Shown here: piece by piece, positions 16,501 to 64,000 of the stretch
How the letters are laid out: each line of letters starts with the position of its first letter
Position numbering within the stretch: position 1 is the first letter of the stretch
Source of the DNA: Strigops habroptila
Taxonomy: Eukaryota > Chordata > Aves > Psittaciformes > Psittacidae
Direction of reading: 5' to 3'
Assembly: GCF_004027225.2 (NCBI RefSeq)
Contig: NW_022651105.1
Span: 186,001 to 250,000, forward strand
DNA: 64,000 nucleotides
Notes under the pieces: model-generated
What the model saw: only the letters and a program-made list of their open reading frames with translations
The model's database searches: none
What the model was told of the DNA's origin: nothing
Made by a program: the position numbers and the translations under genes

Positions 16501-19500
16501 CTCCCAGTTAGGTTGGTGGTGATGGGCCTCCATGGAGCCCATGTCTCCCAGTTAGGTTGGTGGTGGTGGGTCTCCATGGAGCACATCTCCCAGTTAGGTT
16601 GGTGGTGGTGGGCCTCCATGGAGCACATCTCCCAGTTAGGTTGGTGGTGATGGGCCTCTATGGAGCACATCTCCCAGTTAGGTTGGTGGTGATGGGCCTC
16701 CATGGAGCCCGTGTCTCCCAGTTAGGTTGGTGGTGATGGGCCTCCATGGAGCCCATGTCTCCCAGTTAGGTTGGTGGTGGTGGTGGAGCCCACATCTCCC
16801 AGTTAGGTTGGTGGTGATGGGTCTCCATGGAGCACATCTCCCAGTTAGGTTGGTGGTGATGGGCCTCCATGGAGCCCATGTCTCCCAGTTAGGTTGGTGG
16901 TGATGGGATTCCATGGAGCCCATGCCTCCCAGTTAGGTTGGTGGTGGTGGGCCTCCATGGAGCACGTCTCCCAGTTAGTTTGGTGGTGGTGGGACTCCAT
17001 GGAGCACGTCTCCCGGTTAGGTTGGTGGTGATGAGTCTCCATGGAGCACATCTCCCAGTTAGGTTGGTGGTGATGGGCCTCCATGGAGCACATCTCCCAG
17101 TTAGGTTGGTGGTGATGGGCCTCTATGGAGCACATCTCCCAGTTAGGTTGGTGGTGATGGGCCTCCATGGAGCCCATGTCTCCCAGTTAGGTTGGTGGTG
17201 GTGGGTCTCCATGGAGCACATCTCCCAGTTAGGTTGGTGGTGGTGGGCCTCCATGGAGCACATCTCCCATTTAGGTTGGTGGTGATGGGCCTCCATGGAG
17301 CCCATGTCTCCCAGTTAGGTTGGTGGTGATGGGCCTCCATGGAGCACATCTCCCAGTTAGGTTGGTGGTGGTGGTGGGTCTCCATGGAGCACATCTCCCA
17401 GTTAGGTTGGTGGTGATGGGCCTCCATGGAGCACATCTCCCAGTTAGGTTGGTGGTGATGGGCCTCCATGGAACCCATGCCTCCCAGTTAGGTTGGTGGT
17501 GGTGGGATTCCATGGAGCCCATGCCTCCCAGTTAGGTTGGTGGTGGTGGGCCTCCATGGAGCACGTCTCCCAGTTAGTTTGGTGGTGGTGGGACTCCATG
17601 GAGCACGTCTCCCGGTTAGGTTGGTGGTGATGAGTCTCCATGGAGCACATCTCCCAGTTAGGTTGGTGGTGATGGGCCTCCATGGAGCACATCTCCCAGT
17701 TAGGTTGGTGGTGATGGGCCTCTATGGAGCACATCTCCCAGTTAGGTTGGTGGTGATGGGCCTCCATGGAGCACATCTCCCAGTTAGGTTGGTGGTGGTG
17801 GGTCTCCATGGAGCACGTCTCCCAGTTAGGTTGGTGGTGATGGGTCTCCATGGAGCACGTCTCCCAGTTAGGTTGGTGGTGATGGGTCTCCATGGAGCAC
17901 GTCTCCCAGCTGACACCAGCAGGAGAACACCCCCTTTGTGCTGGCCGTGCGGTGCCCAAAGGGTGTGCGGAGCCTTCCCGGTGGGATTCGGGGGGGGGGG
18001 TCCCAGTTTTCCAGTGCAGAGCTTGGGCTGGTCACCCCCACGTGCTGCTCACTGCTTATGGGGACTTCAAGAGCCCCAGGAAGGACGTTGCTGGGGGGGC
18101 TGAAGCTCTGCCCATGGCACTGCCTGCCCTTGGGTGCCCCATAAGCGCCGCTCCCTGCCCCATAAGTGCTGATCCCCGCGGCTTCATGCCCCATAAGGCT
18201 CAATTACCACTGGCCTTGTGCCCCATAAGCACCGCTCCCTGTGGCTTCCTGCCCCACAGGTGCCAATCCCTGGGGCTCCATGCCCCATAAGTGCTGATCC
18301 CCATGGCTCCGTGCCCATAGGGGCCGATCCCGGTGGCTTCATGCCCTATAAGGCTCAATCACCACCGGCCTCATGCCCCATAAGTGCTGATGCCTGTGGT
18401 TCCGTGCCCCATATGTGCTGATTGCCACCAGCTTCGTGCTCCATAAGCCCTGCTCCCTGTGGTTCCGTGCCCCATAGGTGCCAATCCCTGCGGCTTCGTG
18501 CCCCATAAGCACCAATCCTTGCAGCTTTGTGCCCCCTAAGTGCCAATCCCTGCGGCTTCGTGCCCCATAAGCACCAATCCTTGCAGCTTTGTGCCCCCTA
18601 AGTGCCAATCCCTGCGGCTTCGTGCCCCATAAGCACCAATCCTTGCAGCTTTGTGCCCCCTAAGTGCCAATCCCTGCGGCTTCGTGCCCCATAAGCACCA
18701 ATCCTTGCAGCTTTGTGCCCCCTAAGTGCCAATCCCTGCGGCTTCGTGCCCCATAAGCACCAATCCTTGCAGCTTTGTGCCCCCTAAGTGCCAATCCCTG
18801 CGGCTTCGTGCCCCATAAGTGCCACTTGCCACCGGCTCCCTGCCCTCAGCCCCACTCGCTGTGCTTGGCAGGGGCTGGTCCGAGTGCGTGGCCCTGGGCA
18901 GCGCGGAGCCCAGGGAGGAGCCGGAGCGGGGGGGCTGCCCCACGCGCCCCCCGTACCGCAGCAGCGCCGCTTGGCAATGGAGCTCCTCGGCCTCCCACAG
19001 CACCAGCCTCGGCCCCACGGCGCCCCACGGCCGCCCCGGCAAGCAGGCGGTGCTGCCGCCCCACGGCAAGAGGTGAGTGACCACAACACCCCCACCGTGA
19101 CGCCAGCACCGTGACACCCCCACCGTGACACCCCCACCATGGCACCCCCACTGTGACACCCCCACCATGGCACCAGCACCATGGCATCCCCACCATGGCA
19201 CCATCACCATGACACCCCCATGATGGCACACCCACCATGACACCAGCACCATGACACCCCCACTGTGACACCCCCACCATGGCACCAGCACCATGGCACC
19301 CCCACCATGGCACCATCACCGTGACACCCCCACCATGACTCCATCACCGTGACTCCATCACCGTAACACCAGCACCATGACATTCCCACCATGACACCAT
19401 CGCCATGGCACCAGTACCATGACACCCCCGCCATGACTCCATTACCATGGCACCCCCACCATGACACCATCGCCATGACTCCAGCACCATGGCGCCAGCA

Positions 19501-22500
19501 CCGTGACACCCCCACTGTGACACCATCATCATCACACCACCACCGTGACACCCCCACCGTGACACCATCACCATGGCACCCCCACCATGACACCAGCACC
19601 ATGACACCCCCACTGTGACACCATCACCGTCACACCACCACCATGACACCCCCGCCATGACACCCCCACCACGACGCCATCACCATGACTCCACCACCAT
19701 GACACCAACACCATGACACCCCCACCGTGACACCACCACCATGACTCCACCACCATGACACCAACACCATGGCACCCGCACCATGACACCATCACCATGA
19801 CACCATCACCGTGACTCCACCACCATGACACCAACACCATGGCACCCGCACCATGACACCATCACCATGACACCATCACCGTGACTCCACCACCGTGACA
19901 CCAACACCATGGCACCCGCACCATGACACCATCACCATGACACCATCACCATGACTTCACCACCATGACACCAACACCATGACACCCCCACCGTGACACC
20001 ATCACCATGACTCCACCACCATGACACCAACACCATGGCACCCGCACCATGACACCATCACCATGACACCATCACCGTGACTCCACCACCATGACACCAA
20101 CACCATGGCACCCGCACCATGACACCATCACCATGACACCATCACCGTGACTCCACCACCGTGACACCAACACCATGGCACCCGCACCATGACACCATCA
20201 CCATGACACCATCACCATGACTCCACCACCATGACACCAACACCATGGCACCCGCACCACGACACCATCACCACGACACCATCACCATGACTCCACCACC
20301 ATGACACCCCCACTGTGACACCCCCACCGTGACACCCCCACCACACCACCCCCACCACAACACCCCCACCATGCCACCCCCACCACAACACCCCCACCAC
20401 GACACCCCCACCACAACACCCTCACCACGGCAATACCACGGCAAGAGGTGAGTAACCACACCCCCACCATGACACCATCACCACCAACCCTTCACAGAGT
20501 CACAGAATGGTTTGGGTTGGAAAGGACCTGCAGATCAGCCAGTTCCACCCCCCTGCCGTGGGCACGGGGATGATGAGGGGCTGGAGCATCTCCCATGGGG
20601 AGACACGCTGGGAATGTTGGGGCTGGAGAAGCTGCCTGGAGACCTCAGAGCAGCTTCCAGTGCGTGAAGGGGGCTACAAGGATGCTGGGGGGGGACCTTC
20701 AACAGGGATTGGAGTGGTAGGACATGGGGTGATGGGTTCAAACTGAAACAGGGGAAGTTCAGGTTGGATCTAAGGAAGTTCTTCCCTTGAGGGTGGTGGG
20801 ACACTGGGATGGGTTGAGTGGAGCAGGTTTGGCCGCCCCATCCCCGGCAGCGTTCAAGGCCAGGTTGGACGAGGCTTGGAGCAACCTTGTCCGGTGTGAG
20901 GTGTCCCTGCTCATTGCAAGGGCTTGCGACTGGATGGTGTTAAGGTCCTCTCCACCCCAACCCATTCTGTGCTTCCCTGCCTTTTCCCACATGGATCCAT
21001 GGAGCCAGGCCGCTGAGCTTCCCAGAGACACCCCATCCCTCCTCTTCCTCCCCATCGGAGCGGCCGCAGCCGTACCGGCAGCCATCGGGCAGCTTCTCCG
21101 CACCGGGCAGCACCTTCACCCGCTATAAACCATCCCCAGAGAGGTGGGTGACACCGTGGGGACCCCCCGCTGTGTCCCACAGGGGTGGGTGACACCGTGG
21201 GGACCCCATGAGGGGGGGTTTGGCACCGTTTTGGGGGGGGGGTTTAACCCCCTTTTCATCCCAGGTTTGTGGCATCATCGGAGCCACCCGACGGTGACTC
21301 CTCATCGGGGGGGCTCAGCAGCCACGAGAGCACCATGGAGCGGCACAACCCGGGTACGGTGACCCCGGTGTCCCCCCCCCGCGGCCGCAGTGGCCTCTCT
21401 GGTGCCACCAACCCAACGGGGACTCATTGCAGAGCCCGTCTGGCACGTCCCAGCGCAGCCCCGCTTGCCAGCAGGCAGGAGAAGCAGCAAACAGGAGGCG
21501 GCCGGGATGGATTCTCCCAAGCGACATTCCAAGGTGGGGCGCTGGGATGATCCCATCGCATCCCAGTGGGGCGTAGGGAACGCCGAGGTGATGCTTTGGG
21601 GGTGTCCCATAGGGTGATGCGCCGTACTCCAGCCACTCCAGCACCACCACGCTCTCCAGCACCACCTCCAGCGACGAGCGCTGGTTCGACATTCCCGATC
21701 CCAACGATGGCGCCGAATTCCCGGATCCTTTCCCCAAAGGCGGCTCCAACGACAGCGGCATCGACACCCCCAAACCCCCCCGCCCGCTATCCCAGAGGGA
21801 GAAGGGCCCCAAACCCATAGTGGCACCGGGGGATGATGCCACCACCACCAAGAGGGACCCGTCGCCCCCCAGCACAAGCTACAGGCACAAAGCAGGGACC
21901 CCCCCGCAGCCCAGGTGAGCCCCCCCCCCACAATAGGGGTGTCCCCCCCATATTGGGCCACCCCATCTTTATGGGGAGGGGGGATACCCACATCCTCATC
22001 CTCACCCTGAGTCTCCATCCTCTTCCTCATAGCTCCAACCCGCGGATGGGGTATCCCGGCTATAGCACCCCCTCAACTGAAGCCCCCCGGGGGGGGGCCC
22101 AGCTCTCGGCTTCCATCCCCAAATCCTTCTTTTCCAAGCAGCCGGTCAGGAATAAACAGGCCACGGGCTGGAAAAGGGCTGAGGAGAAGCCTGAGCCCCA
22201 AAAGTGGGTGCTGGGGGGGGGGCAGGGCTCCTAAAAGTGGGTGCTGGGGGGGGGCAGGGTGCCAAAAGTAGGTGCTGGGGGGGGTAGGACCACAAAAGGA
22301 GGTGATGGGGTGATGATGTTGGGTGATGATGAGGATGATGATGTTGGATTGATGATGTTGGGGTGATGTTGGGGTTCAGGGGGGTCCCACCTCCATGTCT
22401 GTGTCCCCCCCCCATGGTCCCAGGCGGGTGGAGGCCTGTTGAGGTGATGGGATCATGATGTTGGGGATGATGATGATGGGATGATGATGTTGGGGTGATG

Positions 22501-25500: not shown

Positions 25501-28500
25501 GTTGCTGTGTCCAGTTTTGGGGTGGTTTTGGGCTACTGGGGTTGGTTTTGGGGTGGTTTTGGGGTGCTGAGCTTGGTTTTGGGGTGGTTTTGGAGTGATT
25601 TTGGGGTACTGGGGTCAGTTTCGGGGTGCTGAGGTCGGTTTAAGGGTGGTTTTGGGGTGCTTTGATGTGGTTTTGGTGTGGTTTTGGGGTACTGGGGTCA
25701 GTTTTGGGGTGTCCGGGTCAGTTTTGGGGTGGTTTGGGGTGGTTTTGGGCTTCTGGGGTCAGTTTTGGGGTAGTTTTGGGGTGTTTTGGGGTGGTTTTGG
25801 GGTAGTTTGGGGTGATTTGGGGTAGTTTGGGGGTGTTTTGGGGTAGTTTTGGGGTAGTTTTGGGATGGTTTTGGGGTGTTTTGGGGTAGTTTTGGGGTGT
25901 TTTGGGGTGTTTTGGGGTAGTTTTGGGGTGTTTTGGGGTGGTTTGGGGTGTTTTGGGGTAGTTTTGGGGTGTTTTGGGTTGATTTGGGGTAGTTTTGGGG
26001 TGTTTTGGGGTAGTTTTGGGGTGCTTTGGGGTGGTTTTGGGGTGGTTTGGGGTAGTTTTGGGGTGGTTTGGGGTGTTTTGGGGTGTTTTGGAGTGATTTG
26101 GGGTAGTTTTGGGGTGATTTGGGGTGTTTTGGGGTGATTTGGGATGGTTTTGGGGTGATTTGGGGTGATTTGGGGTGTTTTGGGGTGATTTGGGGTGCCG
26201 ATGGTCCCGGTGTCCCTGCAGGGGCCATCTCGGCCTCGGAGCTGTCCCTGCGCCGGGTGGATCCCGGGATGATGCCGCTGCCGGACACGGCCGCGGGGCT
26301 GGAATGGGCCAGTCTGGTCAATGCAGCCAAGGCCTATGAAGGTACCCCCAAAAACAGCCCCCCCCAACTGCACCCTCACCACGGCGTTGGGTTGGGGGGG
26401 TTTGGGTGGTTTTGGGGTGCTGAGGTCAGGTTTGGGGGGGGTTTGGGGTGGTTTTGGGGCACTATGTTGGGTTTGGGGTGGGTTTGGGTGGGTTTGGGGT
26501 GGTTTGGGGGTGCTGTGTTGCTTTTGGGGTGGTTTTGGGTGTTTTGGGGTGGTTTTGGGGTGTTTTGAGGTGGTTGGGGGTCTTTTTGAGGTGGTTTTGG
26601 GGTGGTTTTGGGCTGGGGTGTTTTGAGGTGGTTTGGGGGTGTTTTGGGGTGGGTTCAGGCTGTTTTGGGGTGGTTTCGGGGTGTTTTGGGATGTTTTTGG
26701 GGTGTTTTGGGGTGGTTTTGGGCTGTTTTGGGGTGGTTTTGGGGTGTTTTGGGGTGGTTTTGGGGTGGTTTTGGGCTGGGGTGTTTTGAGGTGGTTTGGG
26801 GGTGTTTTGGGGTGGGTTCAGGCTGTTTTGGGGTGGTTTTGGGGTGTTTTGGGATGTTTTTGGGGTGTTTTGGGGTGGTTTTGGGCTGTTTTGGGGTGGT
26901 TTTGGGGTGTTTTGAGGTGGTTTTGGGGTGGTTTTGGGCTGGGGTGGTTTGAGGTGGTTTGGGGGTGTTTTGGGGTGGTTTTGGGGTGTTGGGGTGGTTT
27001 TGGGGTGTTTTGGGATGTTTGTGGGCTGTTTTGGGGTGGTTTTGGGGTGGTTTTGGGCTGGGGTGGTTTGAGGTGGTTTGGGGGTGTTTTGGGGTGGTTT
27101 TGGGGTGTTTTGGGGTGGTTTTGGGGTGTTTTGGGCTGTTTTGGGGTGGTTTTGGGGTGTTTTGGGATGTTTGTGGGCTGTTTTGGGGTGGTTTTGGGGT
27201 GTTTTGGGGTGGTTTTGGGGTGTTTTGGGGTGTTTTGGGGTGGTTTTGGGGTGTTTTGGGATGTTTGTGGGCTGTTTTGGGGTGTTTTGGGGCTGTTTTG
27301 GGGTGGGTTTGGGGTGGGTTTGGGATGTTTGTGGGCTGTTTTGGGGTGGTTTTGGGGTGTTTTGGGATGTTTGTGGGCTGTTTTGGGGTGGTTTTGGGGT
27401 GTTTTGGGATGGTTTTGGGGTGGTTTTGGCTGTTTTGGGGTGGTTTTGGGGTGCTAACGTGCCGCCCCCCCAGTGCAAAGGGCCGTGTCCCTGTTCTCCC
27501 TCACGGAGCCGGTGCTGAGCCCCGACCCCCCCCCACCCCCCGAGAGGCCGCGGGGGGGCGCCCCCCCCATCAGGTACAGAGACCCCCCCCCGAGCCCTGT
27601 TGTGTGTGTGTCCCCCCCCTTGTATGTGGGTCTGGGACCCCCCCATATGGGGACACCCCGGGGGCCCCCCCACATCGCCCTGTGCCCCCCCACAGCCCCC
27701 CCTCAGCCTTGGACCTCCCCGAGAAGGTGTCGCAGCTCGAGGCCATGTTGAAGCAGCTCCACAGCGACCTCCAGAAGGTACCTTTTGGGGAGGTTTGGGG
27801 GGGGGGTTTGGGGGGTTTCGGGGTCCGACCATGTGCCCCCCCCAGGAGAAGCAGGACAAGGTAGTTTTGGGGCTGTTTTGAGCTGTTTTGGAGGTGCTTT
27901 TGGGGTGGTTTTGGGTGTTTTGGGCTCTCACCATGTGCCCCCACAGGAGAAGCAGGACAAGGTGGTTTTGGACTGGTTTGGGGCTGTTTTGGGGCTGGTT
28001 TTGGGCTGTTTTGGGCTCTCACTGTGTCCCCCCCCCAGGAGAAGCAGGACAAGGTGGTTTTGGGGCTGTTTTGGGGCTGTTTTGGGCTGTTTTGGGCTCA
28101 CCCTGTCCCCCCCCCATAGGAGAAGCAGGACAAGGTGGTTTTGGGGCTGGTTTTGGGGCTGTTTTGGGCTCACCCTGTCCCCCCCCATAGGAGAAGCAGG
28201 ACAAGGTGGTTTGGGGCTGGTTTTGGGGCTGTTTTGGGCTCACCCTGTCCCCCCCCATAGGAGAAGCAGGACAAGGTGGTTTTGGGGCTGTTTTGGGCTG
28301 TTTTGGGCTCTCACTGTCCGTCCCCCCCATAGGAGAAGCAGGACAAGGTGGTTTGGGGCTGTTTTGGGGCTGTTTTGGGCTGTTTTGGGCTCTCACTGTC
28401 CCCCCATAGGAGAAGCAGGACAAGGTGGTTTTGGGCTGTTTTGGGGCTGTTTTGGGCTGGTTTGGGGTGTGACCGTGTCCCCCCCCATAGGAGAAGCAGG

Positions 28501-28979
28501 ACAAGGTGGTTTTGGGGCTGTTTTGGGCTGTTTTGGGCTCTCACTGTCCGTCCCCCCCCCAGGAGAAGCAGGACAAGGTGGTTTTGGGCTGTTTTGGGGC
28601 TGTTTTGGGCTGGTTTGGGGTGTGACCGTGTCCCCCCCCCCAGGAGAAGCAGGACAAGGTGGTTTGGGGCTGGTTTTGGGGGGTTTTGGGGCTGTTTTGG
28701 GCTGTTTTGGGCTCTCACTGTCCATCCCCCCCCCAGGAGAAGCAGGACAAGGTGGTTTGGGGCTGGTTTTGGGGGGTTTTGGGGCTGTTTTGGGCTGTTT
28801 TGGGCTCTCACTGTCCGTCCCCCCCCCAGGAGAAGCAGGACAAGGTGGTGCTCCAGGCGGAGGTGGCCAACCTGCGGCACAACAACCGGCGCCTGCAGCA
28901 GGAGTCGCACTCGGCCGCGCGGCAGCTCCGCCGCTTCGCCCGCATCTTCTCCGGCACCGTGGACAAGGAGGAGCTGTGA
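10596..28979 (+). CDS. SIPA1L3: SIPA1L3, signal-induced proliferation-associated 1-like protein 3 (Rap GTPase-activating protein)
   Basis: Twenty coding exons: 10596-11940, 12035-12165, 12264-12452, 12526-12700, 12781-12884, 12988-13145, 13317-13893, 15863-16137, 18872-19072, 21009-21143, 21265-21353, 21433-21533, 21613-21914, 22033-22203, 23401-23563, 24196-24388, 26222-26341, 27474-27573, 27696-27777, 28830-28979. All junctions are GT-AG with matching phase, giving 1586 residues (human about 1780). The order of domains is: N-terminal region with [11 protein letters not shown]; RapGAP domain about 556-760, with the catalytic Asn657 in [16 protein letters not shown] domain about 898-980 (GLGQLGFHV); SPAR-type C-terminal region ([18 protein letters not shown]); coiled coil 1510-1586. 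The family promotes GTP hydrolysis on Rap and acts at the cell cortex, junctions and cytoskeleton. Conserved blocks are close to human SIPA1L3 rather than SIPA1 or L1/L2. The gene is intact here, and its introns are unusually repeat-filled. Confidence 0.96.
12035..13893 (+). other. SIPA1L3: RapGAP-domain exon cluster of SIPA1L3
   Basis: Exons 2-7 are separated by introns of only 73 to 171 bp, all free of tandem arrays. This is the one compact part of the gene. It encodes the RapGAP core, including the [16 protein letters not shown] segment and the asparagine-thumb helix HIGNDIVTI. The contrast with the array-filled later introns is striking. Confidence 0.9.
13900..15790 (+). repeat. CR1-derived 63-bp minisatellite, about 26 copies
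   Basis: The unit runs from GGTTGGATACAAGGAAGCTC through CTGATGAGGGTGGTGGGACA to GGAATGGTGGGAAGTTCA. It is the CR1 3' segment GGTTGGAT...GGAAG...CTTCC...GAGGGTGGTGGGACACTGGA repeated in tandem. More CR1 follows on the right (about 15620-15770: GCTCCATCCCTGGC, GGCGTCCCTGCCCATGG). A single CR1 fragment therefore expanded internally, filling most of intron 7. The 63-bp period keeps frames open on both strands; these are not genes. Confidence 0.93.
16140..17915. repeat. ~43-bp minisatellite in SIPA1L3 intron 8, about 40 copies
   Basis: The unit is TCTCCCAGTTAGGTTGGTGG followed by TGATGGGCCTCCATGGAGCA. The array starts within a few bases of the exon-8 donor (CGGAG|GTAGGTGATGG). A block near 16955-17160 recurs almost unchanged near 17554-17760, so a larger duplication of about 600 bp sits on top of the basic unit. 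Confidence 0.94.
18125..18840. repeat. 62-bp minisatellite and related CCCATAAG repeats
   Basis: Degenerate GCCCCATAAG repeats lead into five almost perfect 62-bp copies (GCACCAATCCTTGCAGC at 18508, 18570, 18632, 18694, 18756) just before the acceptor of SIPA1L3 exon 9. The near identity suggests recent expansion. Confidence 0.93.
19080..20460. repeat. CACCATGACAC minisatellite with higher-order ~70-bp units
   Basis: The array starts at the donor of exon 9 and fills most of intron 9 with CACCATGACACC / CCACCGTGACTCC steps. From about 19740 to 20280 these form ~70-bp higher-order units (for example CACCAACACCATGGCACCCG repeated). The array ends at 20434-20460 in a second copy of the exon-9 end and donor. 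Confidence 0.94.
20500..20985 (+). mobile_element. CR1 LINE fragments
   Basis: 20500-20565 is a minus-oriented CR1 3' end (AGAATGGTTTGGGTTGGAAA). It is joined to a plus-oriented CR1 3' part (about 20570-20980) with GACCTCAGAGCAGCTTCCAG, AACTGAAACAGGGGAAGTTC, GAGGGTGGTGGGACACTGG and GTTCAAGGCCAGGTTGGA. These are old, truncated copies in SIPA1L3 intron 9. Confidence 0.85.
22204..23350. repeat. GATGATGTTGGGGT minisatellite in intron 14
   Basis: The array begins with two extra copies of the exon-14 donor region (AAAAGTGGGTGCTGG) and passes into GATGATGTTGGGGTGATG repeats that reach nearly to exon 15. The minus strand is open for over 400 codons of His/Pro/Ile/Ser repeats, an artefact of the repeat. 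Confidence 0.93.
23585..24170. repeat. ~25-50-bp minisatellite in intron 15
   Basis: Units combine AACCATGATCAGTGGGGCTC and CAAACATGACTGGGGGGG. They start about 20 bp after the exon-15 donor and stop shortly before exon 16. Confidence 0.92.
24399..24650 (-). mobile_element. CR1 LINE 3' fragment, inverted twin of 10097-10347
   Basis: The minus-oriented CR1 remnant begins 11 bp after the exon-16 donor at 24388/24389. It is the reverse complement of 10097-10347 over 251 bp with about four mismatches, including the same internal deletions and joins. Such likeness is far above that of unrelated old CR1 copies. Confidence 0.88.
24720..25065. repeat. 23-bp minisatellite
   Basis: About 15 copies of CATAGGACACAGTGGGGAGC plus TCC in SIPA1L3 intron 16. 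Confidence 0.94.
25500..26215. repeat. G-rich TTTTGGGGTGG/TGTTTTGGGG array, intron 16
   Basis: Continuous GGTTTTGGGGTGTTTTGGGG-type repeats on the coding strand up to the acceptor of exon 17. Hundreds of GGGG runs with short loops give very high G-quadruplex potential in DNA and pre-mRNA. Confidence 0.95.
26385..27455. repeat. G-rich TTTTGGGG array, intron 17
   Basis: Same basic repeat as in intron 16, with higher-order blocks containing GGGCTGGGGTGTTTTGAGGT. It runs almost to exon 18. Long Trp/Gly/Phe frames on plus and Pro/Lys/Gln/Asn frames on minus are repeat artefacts. Confidence 0.95.
27840..28829 (+). repeat. SIPA1L3: Array of 12 copies of the last-exon 3' splice site
   Basis: Intron 19 holds twelve tandem units of about 70-100 bp. 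Each has a C-rich tract, an AG and the first bases of the last exon (GAGAAGCAGGACAAGG), then GGTTTTGGGGCTGTTTTGGG filler. The exon-like part starts at 27846, 27947, 28039, 28120, 28191, 28261, 28333, 28410, 28491, 28563, 28644 and 28737. The true exon is the thirteenth copy at 28830. Every unit keeps the acceptor AG. Confidence 0.95.
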
Positions 28980-29764
28980 CCCCCCCGGACAATGGCATTC
29001 CATAGGGAACGCTGGGATTCCATCTGGGGATGCTGCCATTCCATAGGGAACGCTGCCATGCCATGGGGAACGCTGGGATTCCATACGGGAACGCTGCGGT
29101 TCCATAGGGGACTCCAGGGATCTCGCATCTTCTCCGGCACCGTGGACAAGGAGGAGCTGTGACCCACCCCGGGACAATGGCATTCCATAGGGAACGCTGC
29201 CATTCCATAGGGAATGCTGGCATTCCATAGAGAGACACTGAGATTCCATCTGGGGATGCTGCCATTCCATTGAGAGACACTGGGATTCCATACGGGAACG
29301 CTGCGGTTCCATAGGGGACTCCAGGGATCTTGCATCTTCTCTGGCACCATGGACAAGGAGGAGCTGTGACCCAGCCCTTGGAATGCTGGAATTCCATAGG
29401 GAATGCTGCCATTCCATAGGGAATGCTGGAATTCCATAGGGAGACACTGGGATTCCATAGGGCACGCTGCCATTCCATAGGGAACGCTGGGATTCCATAC
29501 GGGAACACTGCAGTTCCATAGGGGACTCCAGGGATCTCGCATCTTCTCCAGCACCGTGGACAACGAGGAGCTGTGACCCTCCCATAGGACACTGGGGACC
29601 CCCCCTTGGGACACCGGGATTCCATAGGGAACGCTGCGATTCCATAGGGAGACACTGGGATTCCATAGGGAATGCTGCCATTCCATAGGGAGACACTGGG
29701 ATGCCATAAGGGATACTAGGGATCTCCAGTGCCTGAAGTGGATGGAGCAGCAGGAGATGCCTCA

Positions 29765-39987: not shown

Positions 39988-42900
39988 TTAATGGGGGAGC
40001 TGCCTCTGCTGCTCCATCCTCCTCCTTCTGCTCTCAGCAACGTGCTTGAAGATGTTCCTCCGTGCTTGATACGGCTCCAGCCTCCTGAGGACCTGGGCAG
40101 CTCGTGGGGAAAGGCGGCTGCAACACAGGGGAACATCATCCTTTAGCTGTGGAGGTGACCCAGGACATCCCAGGGTCTTCCTCTGCAGCCCCAGGATGTG
40201 GGGATGGGGCTGCCCAACAGGCAGTGGCCACACTTACTCAGGCTGGGCTCTCTCCAGCTGGGCTGCTGCTGCCATCTCCTCTGCTGGCAAAGGGCTTTCA
40301 GCCTTTCTCCAGCTCTCCTTGCTCCTGGGCTGGGTTGGATGGTGGGGAATCCAAGGGCCTCCAATACCAAGGGCCTGCCAAGGAGGGAATGCTCTCAGCA
40401 AGCCTCATGGTGCTGTATCCAAGAGGACCTCATGGAAGGAGCCTGCAGCAGGCGCTGGTCCCCAAGAGAGAGTCAATCCCTATCCCCATACCTGGGGTGG
40501 ATGCTGCTCCTCCCCTGCAGCCCAGGCTTCCCACACTGCCCATTCTGCCTTCATTTGCTCCAGCCGCTCTTGCCGGTGGGTCCTCCTCTGCTCCCACTCT
40601 GCAGCCAGCTGCCAGACCTCCTGGACGGGACGGGAATCCATCAGGACTAGGCTCAGCTCCTTCGGGGCTGGCCCATGTTGCTGTCCCTTTGCCTCAGCAT
40701 GTACCTGCAGCGCTCTCTTGCAGGCTTCATCTGATGGGAGGGCAGCGGTGGGCTTGGCTGCAGGAGCTGTCTCCAGCCCACCTGTATCCATTGGCCTGGG
40801 GGAGCAGGGAGGCACCAGAGCAGTCAGCATGAGCACGGGGCACTTGGTGTCCCACTGTCACCCACTGCCAGAAGCTGCAGGGGAGATGGGGCCATTCCCC
40901 ATAGCAAGGGGGAGCCTTTCCTGAGCCCCATCGGATGGGTGTTGTAAGGCCAAGCAAAGGCTTGTTGCGTGCACCAATGGCTGCATCTTCCCCACCAAAA
41001 GAGAATCATAGAATCGTAGAATGGTTTGGCTTGGAAAGGACCTTGAGATCATCCAGTTCCAGCCCCCTGCCATGGGCAGGGACACCTCGCACTAAACCAT
41101 GGTGCTCAAGGCTCCATCCAACCTGGCCTCGAACACCGCCAGGGATGGAGCATTCGCAGCCTTTATGGGCAACACATTCCGGCGCCTCACCACCCTCACT
41201 GTAAAGAACTTCTTCCTTATATCTAACCTGAACTTCCCCTGTTTCAGTTTGGACCTGTTACCCCTTGTCCCTAATGAAGAGTCCTTCTCCAGCATCCTTA
41301 TAGCCTCCTTCGGACACTGGAACAGTTTGGGCGCAAAGGGACCTTAAGTGGTCACCTAATCCAGCTCCCCTCCACAAACAAGTGTGGGCATGTGCCAGGG
41401 ACCTTCCCACAGCCCTACACATCCAAAGGGAATGTCTCTCCTACCTGGATGCAAGGTCCCTTTCCCACCATAATCTCACCTCCCAGGCTTCTTCCCTGTG
41501 TCCTGCTGCCTCATGCCAAGCATCTTGCCGGAACGTCCCTCTGCCTCTAGGGAAGGAGGGAGGTCTCCAGAGCAGCCCCATAGGGACCACGTTTGGAGGT
41601 GGGCTTTGGTCCTACAGCTATACCTGGATCGAAAGGCCCCATTCCTGTTCCCCTGCGGAGCCTGGGCCTTGCTGCAGCCTTCCTGTGCCAAGTGGAGAAC
41701 GCCTTGGCCGCTGCTTGCTCCACAGCTTGGATGACCACAACCAGCTGCAACCTGGAAAGCAAACGGGGACATGGTCGCTCCAGGATTGATCCCTGACTTG
41801 ATGCTGAGCCCCAGGAGGTGGGATGTCCAAGGAAAAGGCGCTCACTTTGGGAATGCGATGGCAGGAGCCGCCGGCATCTCCTGATGGAAGAGGACCGCGC
41901 TCGGCATCCACAGCCTCTGCAAAGTGACATGGAGCTGCTGGGAGGATCCCAAGAAGGATTCCTTCCAGGGTCTGAAGGGTGCTGGAGAGGGACCTTCACC
42001 AGGAGTGATAGGACAAGGCGGAATGAGCTCAAACTGAAACAGGGGAGATTGAGATGAGGTTTTAGGCAGAAGCTCTTCCCCGTGAGGGTGGTGGGACACT
42101 GGCACAGGGCTGCCCAAGGAAGTTGTGGATGCTCCATCCCTGGCAGTGTTCAAGGCCAGGTTGGACAGAGCCTTGGGTGACATGGTCTAGTGTGTGGCAT
42201 CCCTGCCCACGGCAGAGGGTTAGAACTGGATGATCTCAAGGTCCTTTCCAACCCAACCCATTCCATGATTCTATGAAGGACCCTGAGGCTGCCTTTGCTC
42301 ACGAAGCGGGTGGCAGGAGGATGGGGAAAGGCGTTTGGGTGGCTCAGCCTTCCACAGGCTTCCCAAAGCCCTGAGCACGCACCGTGTGGAGCAGCGCCAT
42401 CCAGCCGGCTCTGCTCTCCAGCGCCCTGACGCAGGAGGGGTAGAACCTCATGCACAGGGCATCGTCCTTGCAGCACAGGACACCGATGTCCTTGAAGACG
42501 AAGGGGAGGGACTGCCCGTTCCTCAGTTGCAGGCAGTACAGGAGGATGGTCTCCTGCACACAGTCCTCCACCATGTGCCGTGGGAAAGAGGTGACTCGTG
42601 AGAGCTGCCTGTAGTTGAGAGGCTTCATCTTGACGTTGTCTACAAGGAAGAGGAGCATCGTCACGGCCAAGATTCCGTACAAGTTTCCATGCAGAATGCC
42701 CAAGAAGAAGCAGCTCTCGGGGAATGGGTTGTATGGGAGGAGCTCAAGGCATCCCCCATCCTTTGGAGGCAATTGCCAAAGAGCACCACGGAGGGGGAAA
42801 GCGGAGGATGGCCATTGCCTGCTCACCGGGGATGACCACGGAGGGGGAAAGCGGAGGATGGCCATTGCGTGCTCACCGGGGATGACCACGGAGGGGAACG

Positions 42901-43582
42901 TGAACTCCTGCAGACATAACGTGTCCCAGTCCAGCTGGAAGACAGGTCTTCGGGTGACGTAGACCACTTCTTCCCCATGGAATCGCTCTTGGACAGTAGC
43001 AAAGGTCCCGATTCCTGTGAGCAGGACACCCTGCTCAAGCAAGAGACAAGAAGGCTCATGAGGGAGCACTTTAGAGATGGGAGAAGGCTCCTGTTCTCCA
43101 TTGGTTTTCTTCCCCTTGGCTAACACCCCTTGGCTAGAGAGGATCCGAGGCATTCCCTACACAGGGAGTACGGATTCCTGGCCTTATCCTTGCCATGCCC
43201 TCAGCACATTGACCAAGCTGTGGGCGCACAGGTTTGTCTTGGTGTCCTTCCATGATGCTCAGGAAGGGATCGCTCCCCAGGGCCCAGGCTCTACATGGCA
43301 AAGGGGGACCAAGACACCAGCCCACCTTGTCCAGCTTCAGCTGCCCCAGGATGTACGTAGACACAGCATCCCAGATAGCTACAACCTCTGCAAAGCAAAG
43401 GGAAGAAGTGTCAGGCTCCAGGGCCAGCCAGCTCCTCGCCCAGGGGGTCCACAGTGACCATCCCTGCTCCAACCCATGAGGAAGGAGCCCCCCAAGCCCT
43501 CACCCGTGGTGGAGAGCTGCAGGAGTGTAGGGAAAAAGCTGCTGAGCTCCAAGCTGATGCTCACGCTGCAGCATCCCTCCAT
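39988..43582 (-). CDS. CCDC81-like protein (HU-domain coiled-coil protein), intact
   Basis: Ten minus-strand exons, listed 5' to 3': 43504-43582, 43326-43387, 42877-43030, 42383-42639, 41624-41744, 41480-41546, 40705-40795, 40492-40620, 40238-40329, 39988-40117. All have GT-AG borders and matching phases, giving 393 residues with stop at 39988-39990. Residues about 27-98 (VAIWDAVSTYILGQLKLDKG, GIGTFATVQ, RRPVFQL) and 99-184 (VKMKPLNYRQLS, PFVFKDIGVL, MRFYPS) match the two HU-like domains at the N terminus of CCDC81. Residues about 278-320 form a charged coil (EWEQRRTHRQERLEQMKAEW), and the C terminus is Arg-rich. CCDC81 is linked to centrosomes and cilia. The protein is shorter than human CCDC81 (about 650), so it is probably one of the bird paralogues. 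CR1 pieces sit in two introns. The start Met is inferred from phase. Confidence 0.85.
41007..41305 (-). mobile_element. CR1 LINE 3' end
   Basis: Minus orientation: AGAATCATAGAATCGTAGAA, GGTTTGGCTTGGAAAGGACC, then GGCTCCATCCAACCTGGCCT and TTATATCTAACCTGAACTTC. It is 5' truncated and lies in an intron of the CCDC81-like gene. Confidence 0.92.
41925..42278 (+). mobile_element. CR1 LINE 3' end
   Basis: Plus orientation: AAACTGAAACAGGGGAGATT, GAGGGTGGTGGGACACTGG, GTTCAAGGCCAGGTTGGACA, and the end TTCCATGATTCTATGA. It lies antisense inside a CCDC81-like intron. Confidence 0.92.
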
Positions 43583-48072: not shown

Positions 48073-48170
48073 NNNNNNNNNNNNNNNNNNNNNNNNNNNN
48101 NNNNNNNNNNNNNNNNNNNNNNNNNNNNNNNNNNNNNNNNNNNNNNNNNNNNNNNNNNNNNNNNNNNNNN
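48073..48170. other. Assembly gap (98 N)
   Basis: Run of N. The true distance is unknown, and the join of left and right sequence depends on scaffolding. Confidence 0.99.
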
Positions 48171-52185: not shown

Positions 52186-55100
52186 ATGCCCGTGGGCAAA
52201 GAGGCGAACGCCCGTTCCCAGCCCGCTGAGGGCAGGCCGAGCGCGCAGAGGATGCGCCAGGTGAGAGCCGGGGCAGGAGGGGGAGGCCGGTGGCGGGACG
52301 GGGCCGCACGGAGCTGCCTCGGTGCCGGGGCCGGGCTTGCCGGCACTGCGGGGGCCGCTGTGCCAAGGCAGCCGCCTCCATCACACACCTCTTCCTCCTC
52401 CTCTTCCTCCTGCCCGCAGGTGGCCCGCAGGCAGCCCGAGGAAGCGCCGCAGGGCAGCCCGAGCCAGGCCTCGTCCCACCATGGGATCACGCAGGCACGG
52501 GTGCCCAACCCAGAGAGGTTTCAGCGTGTCGCCAACCAGCAGGCACAGGTAGGGAGCCCGAGGGAGACGGGGCCGAACGTCTTCCCGCCCCCGGGAGCTG
52601 CTGACGGGCAGGCGGGAGGTGCGGGAGGGAGCAAGCTGAGCCCCCCGTGCCGTGCCCGGCCGGCTCCCCGGCGTGCCGGGGGTGCTCTGGGCAGCGGCCG
52701 TGGGCTGCGGGTGGCCAGCCCTGTCCCCAGCCGGCTCTGGGAGCAGGCGGCAGCCGCCTGCGGGGCTGAGCCCTGCCCTGGGGCTGGCGGGGGAGCCCAA
52801 GTGCAAGAGCTCAGCCCGCTGGGACGCGGGCGCAAGGGACACCGTCACACAGCCTCTCTCCTCGGCTTCTCTTGCAGATGGGCAGCGCGGGGCACCGAGG
52901 GATGCTGCCCCGCAGCAGCGGGCCAATGCGTGAGCAGACGCTTCGTCTGCCACCAGTGGTGGCAATGGCACCCCGGCCGCCTCCTCGCTCAGAGAGACCC
53001 GTCGTCACCTCCTGCAGGCTGCCGCCTGTGGCACCAGCAGCCTCTGCGGCTTCTGGCACTGTCAGCAGCTTGGCCATCGGCAGCACGAGCAGCAGGCAAC
53101 AGCAGCTTCTCAAAACCGCAGCCCAGCTGCGCCGCGAACCAAGTCACGGCAGCAGAGTTGCATGGCCAGAGACCTGCCGGACACCTGCCCCACTCAGCCC
53201 CACAGCCTCTGCCTCTGCAATGGAGAGCTCGGGCAGCGTGAGCGCAGTCCTGCGCAAGAACAGCACCGGGAGCCGGGGAGCCCGCCGGCAGCCAGCGCCA
53301 CGGCAGGACCTGGCGCACAGCAGGGCTGCAGGGATGAGGACAAGGACAGACCCTGTCCCGGTGGCTGGCAGCAGCAAGGCCCCTGCCGCTCAGCCCACAC
53401 GTCACTCTCACAGCCATGGGGGTACCGGTGCTCCCCAGAGCAGGAACACAGGGCAAGCAGCAGAGCACCTGCCAGCAATGCCGGCGGCACGCATGAATTC
53501 CTGCATCAACACCAAGTTCCTTGGTGTGCACTACAGGCCTGTTGCACAGCGTCTGCCCCCCCAGCCCAGCAAGACCAGGCCTTCGGAGCAGCCGAAGAAG
53601 AGCTGCCTGGCCAGAGCTCCTGAGGAAGAGGAGCACCAGGCACGTCTCCTTCCCGTGGCACCGGCACCAGCTTCTAATAACCTTGGCAAGAAGGAGGCAG
53701 CACCACAGGGGCAGAGACATGCACCTGCCCTGAAGGGCACCAGAGTGATGGACGCAGCTCTGCAGGTCACAGCCACATCCAAAAAGAGGAAGCTGCTGCT
53801 CCCGCCCTTGCCTGGGATCCTGAGAACCAGCAAGAAGCAGGCGGAACAGCAAGACACAAGCCAAAGCTGGCATGTGGCGATGGCAGCATTGCCGCATGCA
53901 GCACTTAAGGACACCGAGTCTGCTGTGAGCCATGTGCGTGTGTCAGTGGCAGCAATGAGACCTGCAGCAGTTGAGGGCACGGAGTCTCCTGTGGCCGCAG
54001 AGCCTCAGGGAGAGCCAAGCACAGCCCCTCTCGTCCCAGCAGCAGCCGAGAGTGGAGAAGACATGGTGTCTCCTGTGGCTGGAGACCACCAAGAAGAGGC
54101 CATAAGAGCCAGTGTCTCCCTGGCAGCACACGAGGGGGATGTGACACCTTCATTGACTGAGATCCCTGGGGCAGATGCTGGAACACCGCCCCCTGCCCCT
54201 GGGGCAGAAGATGAAGGGGAAGCAGCAGCTCGTCCCTTGGCTCAGGACTCTCAGCACCAGGTGAGTGACAGCGTGTGGCCGGCACCGGCGATGCCGAGGT
54301 GCTGGAGGCAGCCCCAGAGCCCGGGCTGTGTGTGGCAGGGACATTGCTGGTGCTCCCTGTGCCATCCCGCTGACATCCCCTCCCTCCCCTGCCCGTGCTC
54401 TTCCTCTCCCGTCCCGCACCCCTGCTCTGGCGCAAAGGCACTGAAGGAGAGCAGCCCGGGAGGGACCTCCCCAGTGAGCAGCCACCAGCAGCAGCCCCAG
54501 CACCAAGTGACGGGCCAATGCACCACCCAGCCCCGGCGCTGGTCACAGGGCCACAGGGGAGAAGGCAGCCCATGGCACGGCACCCACACAGCTACCTCCA
54601 GCCCCGAGAGAGACACGGCTGGGGAGAGCTGTCAGCTCCTGATGTTCTGCTGTGTGTTCACAGGAGGAGCCAGCAGCCTTGCCCGCAGAGGAGGAGAAGG
54701 ATGAGGATGCGAAGGAGGAGTCGGAATATGTTAGTGACAAAGAGCTGTCCCAAGGAGAAGCCGGCACCTTGTACAACATCTGCGTCAACCCCTTGGTGCC
54801 AGAGCTCTTCCAGGACCCCCGAGCGCATATCCAGGAGGGACCCAGCATCCTCAGCAGCATGGGCACGGATGCGGCAGCAGAGGCAGCCGGAGACCTGCAG
54901 AGCGTGTCTCCTGCCCCGGCCGGTCCCACGGACACCGAGCCGGCAGCTCCGAGCCTGGCTGGAGCTGCTGAGGAAGAGCAGCACCAGGCACCTCTCGCTG
55001 CTGCGCACCAAGAGCAGGAGGAGGCACTGGCATCAGCTTCCCCTGGCTTTGATGAGGAGGAGGCAGAAGCAGAGGCCTGGAAAAAGGCATTTGCCCTGCT

Positions 55101-56253
55101 CAGCGCCAAGGTCTCTGAGCTGCTACAACAGGAAACAGCCGCGTGCATAAGGAGGGACATCGCGCACCGGGCTTCGGCTGTCTTACACCAAAGTGACGAG
55201 CAGCCTCTGGAACAGCAGGACATGGCTCAAAGCCATGTGAATGTGGCAATGGCAGCAATGAGACCTGCAGCAGTTGAGGACACGGAGCCTCCTGTGGCCA
55301 CAGAGCCTCAGGGAGAGCCAAGCACAGCCCCTCTCGTCCCAGCAGCAAAAGAGAAGGCGGCACCGGCACGAGCTTCCCGTGCCTTTAGCAAGCAGGAGGA
55401 AGACAAAGAGGCCCAGGAGGCACTTGCTCTGCTCAGCCCCATAGCCTCTGAGTTTGTTCCACAGGAACTAGCCAGCCAGTTCGTGAGGGATGTCATTCGC
55501 GCTGGTTTTGCTGTGATCCAGGAAACTATCCTGCAGCGTCTGGAAGAGCAGGACGTGGCCGAAGGAGTGGATGTGTCGACGGCAGCAAGGAGACCTGCAG
55601 AAGTTCAGTCCACCGAGTCTCCTGTGCCAACACCAGCAGAGGCCCAGAGAGAGACACCATCATGGGCCGAGAGAGAGACACCATCACGGGCCCAGGGAGA
55701 GGGATCAGGGCACCCCTGGAGTCAGCTCCCACCACATGCGCAGAGACAGACCCCACCCAGGGTCTCAGTTCTCAACAGAGCTCTGCAGGCTGTATTGGGG
55801 CGCAAAGTGAGGAAAGCACCTAAAAAGCACCAAGGAGAGGCCAGCACAACCTTTGCTACCCCGCGATTCTACGAGGATGCACAGGCAGCGTATGCAGCAG
55901 CTCAGGAAAGGGCAGCAACACCCTGGTGTCAAGAGGCACCCAGGCCAAGCTGGAGGCAGCGTCTGTTCAAGTGCGGCAGTGCCCCGGCCTCCCCTCCTCC
56001 TACAAGGGTTCATATCCCTCATCGCAGTCTCCCCAGGAGAGAACCTTATCGGTGGCTGAGAGGAGGAACCTACGATAGGTCCTCCTATCACTACACCTAT
56101 TCTTACCCCAGAGTCATCGTCGTCTTGCCGCAAGGAGTACTGCACGATGAGAAAGAGCATCAAGAGCAGCAACCATCCTGCTTCAGAAGGGTGCTGAGGG
56201 CTCTGTGCAAGGCTTGCAGCTGCTCCTGCATGAACCCACAAGTGGAGGAGTAG
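52186..56253 (+). CDS. Ala/Pro/Glu-rich protein of a multicopy family, intact, function unknown
   Basis: Five exons, all phase 0: 52186-52260, 52420-52548, 52878-54260, 54438-54506 and 54664-56253, with GT-AG borders and no internal stop, 1081 residues. It starts MPVGKEANARSQPAEGRPSA. Exon 3 is basic and Ser/Pro/Arg-rich. Exons 3 and 5 carry repeats of a module like [31 protein letters not shown]. Exon 5 has two related helical segments (ALLSAKVSELLQQE and ALLSPIASEFVPQE) and an aromatic stretch SSYHYTYSYPRVIVVLP, and ends in Cys-rich CKACSCSCMNPQVEE. No signal peptide or membrane segment is evident. I recognise no family. Low-complexity matches to sheath- or cilia-type proteins such as FSCB are possible but could come from composition alone. 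Partial relatives lie at 50304, 57286, 61370 and 63387. Confidence 0.7.
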
Positions 56254-61370: not shown

Positions 61371-63580
61371 TTCCCATTGCTGCTCCACCTGCTTCTTGCT
61401 GGTTCTCTGGATCCCAGCCGAGGGCAGGAGCAGCAGCTTCCTCTTTTTGGATGTGGCTGTGACCTGCAGAGCTGCATCCATCACTCTGATACCCTGCAGG
61501 GCAGGTGCATGTCTCTGCCCCTGTGGTGCTGCCTCCTTCTTGCCAAGGTTATTAGAAGCTGGCGCCGGTGCCACGGGAAGGAGACGTGCCTGGTGCTCCT
61601 CTTCCTCAGGAGCTCTGGCCAGGCAGCTCTTCTTCGGCTGCTCCGAAGGCCTGGTCTTGCTGGGCTGGGGGGGCAGACGCTGTGCAACAGGCCTGTAGTG
61701 CACACCAAGGAACTTGGTGTTGATGCAGGAATTCATGCGTGCCGCCGGCATTGCTGGCAGGTGCTCTGCTGCTTGCCCTGTGTTCCTGCTCTGGGGAGCA
61801 CCGGTGCCCCCATGGCTGTGAGAGTGACGTGTGGGCTGAGCAGCAGGGGCCTTGATGCTGCCAGCCACCGGGACAGTGTCTGTTCTTAGAATCATAGAAT
61901 CACAGAATAGTAAGGGTTGGAAAGGACCTTAAGATCATCTAGTTCCAACCCCCCTGCCATGGGCAAGGACACCTTGCACTAAACCATGTGGTCCAAGGCT
62001 CTGTCCAACCTGGCCTTGAACACCGCCAGGGATGGAGCATCCACAACCTCCCTGGGCAACCCATTCCAGTGCTTCACCACCCTCACTGTAAAGAACTTCC
62101 TCCTTATATCTAATCTAAACTTCCCCTTTTTAAGTTTGAACCCATTACCCCTTGTCCTACCACTCCAGTCCCTAAGGAAGAGTCCCTCCCCAGCATCCTT
62201 ATAGACCCCCTTCAGATACTGGAAGGCTGCTCTGAGGTCTCCACACAGCCTTCTCTTCTCCAGGCTGAACAGCCCCAACTCTCTCAGCCTGTCTTCATAC
62301 GGGAGGTGCTCCAGCCCTCTTATCATCCTCGTGGCCTCCTCTGGACTCGCTCCAACAGCTCCATGTCCTTTTTATGTTGAGGACACCAGAACTGGACGCA
62401 GTACTCCAAGTGAGGTCTCACAAGAGCAGAGTAGAGGGGCAGGATCACCTCTTTTTGCCTGCTGGTCATGCTTCTTTTGATGCAGCCCAGGATATGGTTG
62501 GCTTTCTGGGCTGCAAGCGCACACTGAAGCCGGCTCATGTTAAGCTTCTCGTCAACCAACACCCCCAAGTCCTTCTCCTCAGGCTGCTCTGAATCTCTTC
62601 TCCGCCCAATCTGTAGCAGTGCCTGGGATTGCCCCCACCCAGGTGTAGGACCTTACACTTGGCTTGGTTAAACTTCGTAAGATTGGCATCGGCCCACATC
62701 ACAAGCGTGTCAAGGTCCCTCTGGATGGCATCCCTTCCCTCCAGCGTATGAACAGAACCACACAGCTTGGTGTCGTCGGCAAACTTGCTGAGGGCGCACT
62801 CAATCCCACTGTCCATGTCGCCGACAAAGATGTTGAACAGGACCAGCCCCAACACCGATCCCTGAGGGACACCACTCGTTACAGGTTTCCAACTGGACAT
62901 CGAGCCGTTGACCACAACTCATTGCGTGCGGCCATCGAGCCAGTTCTTTATCCACCGAGTGGTCCATCTATCAAATTGATGTCTCTCCAATTTAGAGACA
63001 AGGATGTCATGTGGGACAGTGTCGAATGCTTTGCACAAGTCCAGGTAGATGACGTCAACTGCTCTGCCCCTGTCCATCAGTTCCGTGGCTCCATCATAGA
63101 AGGCCACCAAATTGGTCAGGCAGGATTTCCCCTTAGTGAAGCCATGTTGGCTGTCACCAACCACCTCGTTGTTTTTCATGTGCCTTAGCATGTTTCCCAG
63201 GAGAATCTGCTCCAAGATTTTGCCAGGCACAGAGGTGAGGCTGACTGGTCTGTACTTCCCCGGGTCTTCCACCTTCTCCTTCTTGAAAATGGGGGTTATA
63301 TTACCCTTCTTCCAGTCATCGGGAACTTCACCTGAATGCCATGATTTTTCAAATATGATGGACAGTGGTTTATCAAATTCATTCTTGTTCTCATCCCTGG
63401 AGCCCTGCTGTGTGCCAGGTCCTGCCGTGGCGCTGGCTGCCGGCGGGCTCCCCGGCTCCCGGTGCTGTTCTTGCGCAGGACTGCGCTCACGCTGCCTGAG
63501 CTCTTCATTGCAGAGGCTGTGGGGCTGAGTGGGGCAGGGGTCCGGCAGGTCTCTGGCCCTGCAACTCTGCTGCCATGACA
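61370..63580 (-). pseudogene. Inverted partial copy of the multicopy gene, split by a CR1 LINE
   Basis: On minus, 63387-63577 matches about 53142-53345 and 61370-61882 matches about 53346-53840 of exon 3 of the intact gene ([20 protein letters not shown], then RMNSCINTKFLGVHYRPVAQ, EQPKKSCLARAPEEEEHQAR). The two halves join exactly around the CR1 insertion. Sequence identity is high and the rest of the exon is missing on both sides. It could previously have been expressed but is now interrupted. Confidence 0.88.
61888..63381 (-). mobile_element. CR1 LINE, 1.5 kb, 5'-truncated, with target-site duplication
   Basis: The minus-strand reading covers the reverse-transcriptase domain in pieces: [104 protein letters not shown]. 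The 3' end reads ATTCTATGATTCT at 61888. The element is flanked by TTCTT at 61883-61887 and 63382-63386. It is too short for ORF1 and endonuclease, and the frame is broken in places, so it is dead but relatively young. Confidence 0.95.
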
Positions 63581-63589
63581 AGGGGGTTT

Positions 63590-64000
63590 CCCGTCCCCAA
63601 ACACAAACCAAGAGCTGCGTCCGTCTTCCTGCCCAACTACATCTGCAGCCTCAGGCCCGCCTCGCTGTCCTTGCTCTGCTGCAGCCCCGGGGACCCAAGG
63701 CCATGGCTTGGGGCATCTGTAAGACCCCCTGCACTCAGGTGCTCGGAAGCTGCAGGATGGGGATGGAGGGGATCGAGCGGGGTCACCCGTCTGCTTCCCA
63801 TTTACAGTTCTGCTTCTGGAAACGCTGCCAGCTTCCCGCTGCATTGCTCCAGTGCTTGCGCGTGCAAGAGGAGCAGGAGAATCGCAATCTCTTGTCCCTT
63901 ATCTCTGGCCTTAGCAACTCCAAGCCTCGCTCCTTATTCCTCCCATCCTTTCTACACCCCTCTCATTCCGGTCACTGGGCTGCAGCACGCAGCGGGCTCC
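63590..64000. other. No gene recognised
   Basis: GC-rich unique sequence. A minus frame reads into the inverted gene copy, but similarity to the intact gene stops at about 63577. It may be upstream sequence of a diverged copy. Confidence 0.4.

Follow-up and report, generated by a model that had tools for sequence, protein, structure and literature searches.

Twelve copies of an acceptor and exon start in the last SIPA1L3 intron of the kakapo: a probable case of exon stuttering

The last intron of the gene SIPA1L3 in the kakapo, Strigops habroptila, is largely composed of a tandem array in which the 3' splice site and the opening of the last coding exon are repeated twelve times ahead of the real site. 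The sequence analyzed (the window) is a stretch of 64,000 nucleotides from the forward strand of contig NW_022651105.1 (assembly GCF_004027225.2, positions 186,001 to 250,000), and all coordinates given here are counted within it. We consider it very probable that the array is an instance of exon stuttering and that its origin is most likely an ordinary one. As described in PMC12954441, introns of dot-chromosome genes in chicken have been filled with local repeats, a phenomenon called sequence stuttering, and in a subset of introns the repeats take in a lateral portion of the exon along with its splice donor or acceptor. The tally reported there is 115 genes and 236 introns, with 190 of the introns located on dot chromosomes and with 1-44 copies. 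Among the literature matches examined, the term “exon stuttering” was found in that paper only, and the name SIPA1L3 is absent from its main text.

The identity of the gene and of the exons flanking the array was established with protein evidence. When the kakapo SIPA1L3 protein (record P0001) was compared with the window by tblastn, exon 1 was identical at 448 of 448 residues, the PDZ exon at 93 of 93 and the segment at 26221-26340 at 40 of 40, with the remaining segments scoring lower and running past exon ends or over introns. The Rap-GAP domain (in part) and the PDZ domain match the exons tested, and in exon 1 the identity to a budgerigar SIPA1L3 record is 83%. These identities point to the kakapo or a very close relative as the source of the sequence. 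The last coding exon (28830..28979, + strand) comprises the real acceptor, the C-terminal segment, which we take to be a coiled coil, and the stop codon; its 49 residues are all identical to the end of the kakapo record (49/49), i.e., the coding exon is intact. The penultimate coding exon (27696..27777, +), located by tblastn with P0001 and with its start set by eye from a CAG acceptor, ends at the donor AAG/GTACCT, and the splice junction implied by P0001 joins donor 27777 to acceptor 28829/28830. Between these two lies the last intron (27778..28829, +), of 1052 nt, most of which is the repeat array.

Within 27844-28846, the succession of AG, GAGAAGCAGGACAAG and GT is present in 13 exact copies, all on the + strand, with copy 13 forming the opening of the last coding exon. 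The copies of GAGAAGCAGGACAAGGT start at 27846, 27947, 28039, 28120, 28191, 28261, 28333, 28410, 28491, 28563, 28644, 28737 and 28830, and no exact GAGAAGCAGGACAAGGT was found on the opposite strand. A search of both strands with the 19-mer that includes the AG, allowing up to 3 mismatches, returned the 13 exact copies and a single 3-mismatch match at 43324 (-), where the shuffle expectation was 0.03. The twelve extra copies (27844..28756, +), referred to here as decoys, each join the acceptor AG to 17-20 nt from the start of the last exon, with GGTTTTGGGG-type filler between them: the match to the exon extends over 20 nt in 11 of the 12 copies and over 17 nt in one, starts at exon base 1 in all twelve, and is preceded in all twelve by the AG, as CAG or TAG. 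Upstream of every copy a branch-point-like motif of the CTCAC/GACC type and a C-run are found, and a candidate branch A lies 15-20 nt before the exon base in each. The copies are spaced 70-101 bp apart (mean 82), and Tandem Repeats Finder reports 84% matches over the array at periods 81 and 93; the tandem-repeat listing, which holds 212 rows for the window, also shows a higher period of 153 bp. G4Hunter scores of at least 1.2 were obtained for 25% of 25-nt windows in the last intron vs. 8% across the whole sequence, and scores of -1.2 or below for 9.5% of those in the last intron. An earlier reading made from the letters alone (the sequence-only reading) had proposed twelve decoy 3' splice sites in front of the last SIPA1L3 exon, at 70-100-bp intervals, each with its AG kept and the first 16-20 exon bases repeated, and with quadruplex-prone filler in between; our counts agree with this picture, the filler is indeed G-rich, and the gene, the exon and the donor at 27777 that it had named are those implied by the kakapo protein.

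The resemblance to exon stuttering as known from PMC12954441 lies in the repetition of an exon edge with its splice site, in imperfect tandem, across the neighboring intron of a bird gene filled with repeats, with the coding exon left intact and the copies starting at the exon border. In that source the copied sequence begins no more than 1 base from the exon border in >90% of cases, and splice sites form part of the copies; taken strictly in these terms, the twelve copies in the last SIPA1L3 intron, which start at the exon border and carry the splice site, are exon stuttering. There are also differences. The paper screens chicken, with other birds in some instances, whereas the array described here is from a parrot, and the published screen covers introns, whereas SIPA1L3 additionally has a donor-side copy and copies of its coding end in the 3' untranslated region (3'UTR). 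Furthermore, the array falls below the published detection cut-off (at least 20 bp and at least 42.1 bits) because the exon part of the copies is only 17-20 nt long and reaches 40.1 bits at most, eleven copies scoring 40.1 bits over 20 bp and one scoring 34.2 bits over 17 bp. The 42.1-bit cut-off is a detection threshold and lies outside the definition of exon stuttering, and short exon-edge copies can lie below it in the published screen. With the array, exon stuttering is carried over to a gene in a parrot, and with the 3'UTR copies to a stop-bearing coding end. Intronic minisatellites, or variable-number tandem repeats, share with it the tandem units of tens of bases, the G-rich filler and the higher period, but the SIPA1L3 unit includes an acceptor and an exon start. 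Tandem alternative acceptors of the NAGNAG type likewise present several possible AGs to one donor, as is the case in SIPA1L3; here, in contrast, the possible AGs are separated by a full repeat spacing and each has a branch-point-like motif and C-run of its own.

Exon edges have been copied twice more in the same gene. On the donor side, the end of an upstream exon with its donor GTGAGT (19062..19084, +) recurs at 20437..20459 (+) as a decoy donor, with 1 mismatch in 23 and beyond a 14-bp minisatellite, a copy of a kind that shuffles do not lead one to expect. At the end of the coding region, the last 39 coding bases including the stop (28941..28979, +) are the source of three copies in the 3'UTR (29124..29576, +), which start at 29124, 29331 and 29538 in a repeat of 207-bp period and differ from the source by 0, 3 and 2 bases, respectively. 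An exon-edge screen of 14 exons found, beside the copies of the last exon, one internal 13-nt match to exon 1 that lies off the edge. A second screen, of 17 entries, returned 12 upstream and 3 downstream copies for the last exon and 1 copy for entry 9. Entry 1 has a start codon and lacks an acceptor, the borders set for entries 3, 9, 10, Ea, Ed0 and Ee are in part incorrect, and the negative edges of these entries were left uncounted. Of three further stretches taken, 18870-19142 (51 matches) was excluded from the edge counts, as it overran the exon end into the 14-bp minisatellite. In the neighboring introns, the GTTTTGGGGTG minisatellite (25514..27453, +) has 49 of 281 distinct 12-mers in common with the array region and contains a further exon (26222..26339, +) that matches kakapo SIPA1L3; no copies of this exon above the shuffled control were found nearby. 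The exon at 23401 may have a copy of its acceptor edge, with 2 mismatches, at 22422. The heptapeptide TMAFHRE, encoded in the translated 3'UTR repeat (28980-29159), also occurs near the end of the budgerigar predicted protein P0003, hinting that part of the 3'UTR repeat sequence exists in both parrots, kakapo and budgerigar.

These further copying events also bear on whether the array could have been created by faulty assembly, through the multiplication of one or a few copies. GC-rich intron repeats are error-prone, the authors of PMC12954441 caution on local technical variation, and units 10, 12 and 13 share 97-99% identity over 78 nt; against this, the units differ from one another in filler, spacing, branch region and the choice of CAG or TAG, the only N run of the window (48073-48170) is not near the array, and two other exon edges in SIPA1L3 have been copied. 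We therefore see only a slim chance that the array is an artefact.

Splicing of the last intron is faced with a choice among acceptors that are in part indistinguishable. Decoy acceptor 10 (28508..28582, +) is identical to the real acceptor across 75 nt, 55 upstream and 20 downstream, so that no discrimination is possible within that stretch, and this decoy constitutes a natural test of how the spliceosome picks among equal acceptors. While the 13 near-equal acceptors of the sequence-only reading are thus borne out, its statement that the use of any decoy would replace the C-terminal coiled coil does not hold for every decoy. Decoys 11 and 12 together with the following filler (28644..28829, +) translate in frame with the native C-terminus: both acceptors would read on across the filler as far as the normal end, lengthening the protein by 62 and 31 residues, respectively. 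Among the remaining ten decoys, eight reach a stop after 11-72 codons, and the other two, decoys 2 and 7, stay open in a different frame for 352 and 237 codons. Nonsense-mediated decay would not be expected, because stops derived from decoys would lie in the last exon. The same reading had offered a regulated switch among acceptors as an alternative. Such a switch would purposefully shorten or lengthen the C-terminus and could make use of the identity of decoy 10 with the real site and of the longer in-frame proteins from decoys 11 and 12, but no positive evidence was found for it; the array fits exon stuttering, other exon edges were copied into places where they could not act as acceptors (e.g., the coding ends in the 3'UTR), and the process described in PMC12954441 yields arrays of this kind, with stuttering introns that differ in length among chickens. 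We regard a regulated switch as very improbable.

The real acceptor is set apart by what follows it. At +16 to +115, four to six GGG-runs are present after 12/12 decoys and none after the real site. According to PMC12062376, G-runs bound by hnRNP F/H enhance splicing when downstream of a donor and silence it when within an exon. The G-runs after the decoys, of the hnRNP F/H type, would act as silencers inside exons, whereas the real exon is without them; the 13th acceptor would then be used in most transcripts, with some mis-splicing to decoys being tolerated. The G-runs are in our view the likeliest main reason why the decoys lose. Definition of the terminal exon would also help the real acceptor.

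A different reading of the unit takes it as a microexon. In 12/12 copies, exactly 15 nt lie between AG and GT; these are in frame (encoding EKQDK) and have a donor-like AAG/GT end, a feature absent from the sequence-only reading, so that an array of 15-nt exons, each with its own acceptor and donor, would place a variable number of pentapeptides in the C-terminus. Scored with an approximate matrix, the decoy donors reach 1.71 (11 copies) and 1.83 (copy 1), compared with 1.05 and 0.28 for the real donors at 27777 and 27573, but of the 11 real SIPA1L3 donors that were scored, 8 surpass the decoys. The identity of the cores in 13/13 units would suit microexons and is compatible with the absence of CpG from the core. 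The distance from a decoy donor to the candidate branch A of the next unit is 37-70 nt, being <50 nt in 8/12 cases and >75 nt in 0/12; as given in PMC12062376, distances <50 nt are damaging and those >75 nt carry a low risk. A homologue search with residues 1000-1190 of the joined SIPA1L3 translation gave 573 matches, and the 120 of these that were examined, among them the kakapo record, all have a single E[K/R]xDK in their last 160 residues. This speaks, indirectly, against common inclusion of microexons, as many of the records are labelled as predictions and clustering at 90% identity was applied to the collection. We consider the microexon array highly unlikely, and it appears hardly probable that a growing set of in-frame 15-nt microexons shifts the length of the conserved C-terminal segment by multiples of five residues, differing from one individual to the next.

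For exon stuttering, a plausible route can be sketched. In a G-rich intron of a minisatellite-filled gene, repeated template switching or unequal exchange could have driven the expansion of a unit that straddled the intron/exon border, whereby each copy would come to contain a branch-point-like motif, a C-run, the AG and the first 17-20 exon nt. GGTGGT (28844-28849) marks the end of the copied exon sequence, and this putative breakpoint matches 6 nt in the filler between copies and 7 nt in the upstream GTTTTGGGGTG minisatellite; a match as long is found at only 6 (filler) and 8 (minisatellite) of 143 exon positions, the breakpoint included. These matches point weakly to microhomology with the minisatellite filler as the site of template switching or unequal exchange. 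Splicing to the first acceptor would leave an intron of 68 nt, near in size to other SIPA1L3 introns of 73, 80, 94 and 103 nt, although further introns of the gene are longer. The sum of 68 and 15 is 83, near the mean unit of 82, and the unit may represent the whole ancestral intron plus 15 exon bases. We infer both the mechanism of copying and the lack of a selected role for the copies.

A number of observations weigh against this account, in its treatment of acceptor choice, of origin and of selection. With respect to acceptor choice, the total G content after the real site (0.35) is close to that after the decoys (0.36-0.41), and only the runs differ. Predicted RNA accessibility was considered as a discriminator and rejected: when the 13 acceptors are compared for an unpaired 12-nt stretch at the AG, decoys 1 and 7 come out ahead of the real one, which takes third place, and folding does not single out the real site. 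With respect to origin, the breakpoint matches the first intron segment (27778-27845) over only 3 nt, a length that is also reached at 77 of 143 exon positions; the idea of microhomology therefore rests on the other filler, and a unit made of the whole ancestral intron sits poorly with this short match. In addition, the copying in the 3'UTR has no counterpart in the sections of PMC12954441 consulted, according to which repeat blocks did not cross into exons.

With respect to selection, the 15-nt core is identical in 13/13 units, with 19 invariant columns overall, whereas the branch-point side varies. Variation is seen in 1/22 columns vs. 10/18 hand-picked neighboring ungapped columns (p=0.0007), and changes number 0/228 in the core vs. 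5/117 in the 3'UTR copies (p=0.004), where these p values are rough, as columns and copies are not independent. Four of the five mismatches in the 3'UTR control copies are at CpG sites, however, and the core has no CpG; when CpG sites are removed, the comparison becomes 0/228 in the core vs. 1/99 in the 3'UTR copies (p=0.30). Selection on the 15-nt core was thus rejected as a required explanation, the signal being lost without CpG sites; what is left of the invariance could be weak evidence of selection, which would not be needed to account for it.

Elsewhere in the window, an open frame of about 535 codons at 54643-56250 (+) gave no Pfam match at E 0.001, and a second open frame, at 42347-43156 (-), matches CCDC81 HU domain 2. 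A reverse-transcriptase domain (RVT_1) is found at 62922-63650 (-) and is perhaps part of a fragment of a long interspersed nuclear element (LINE).
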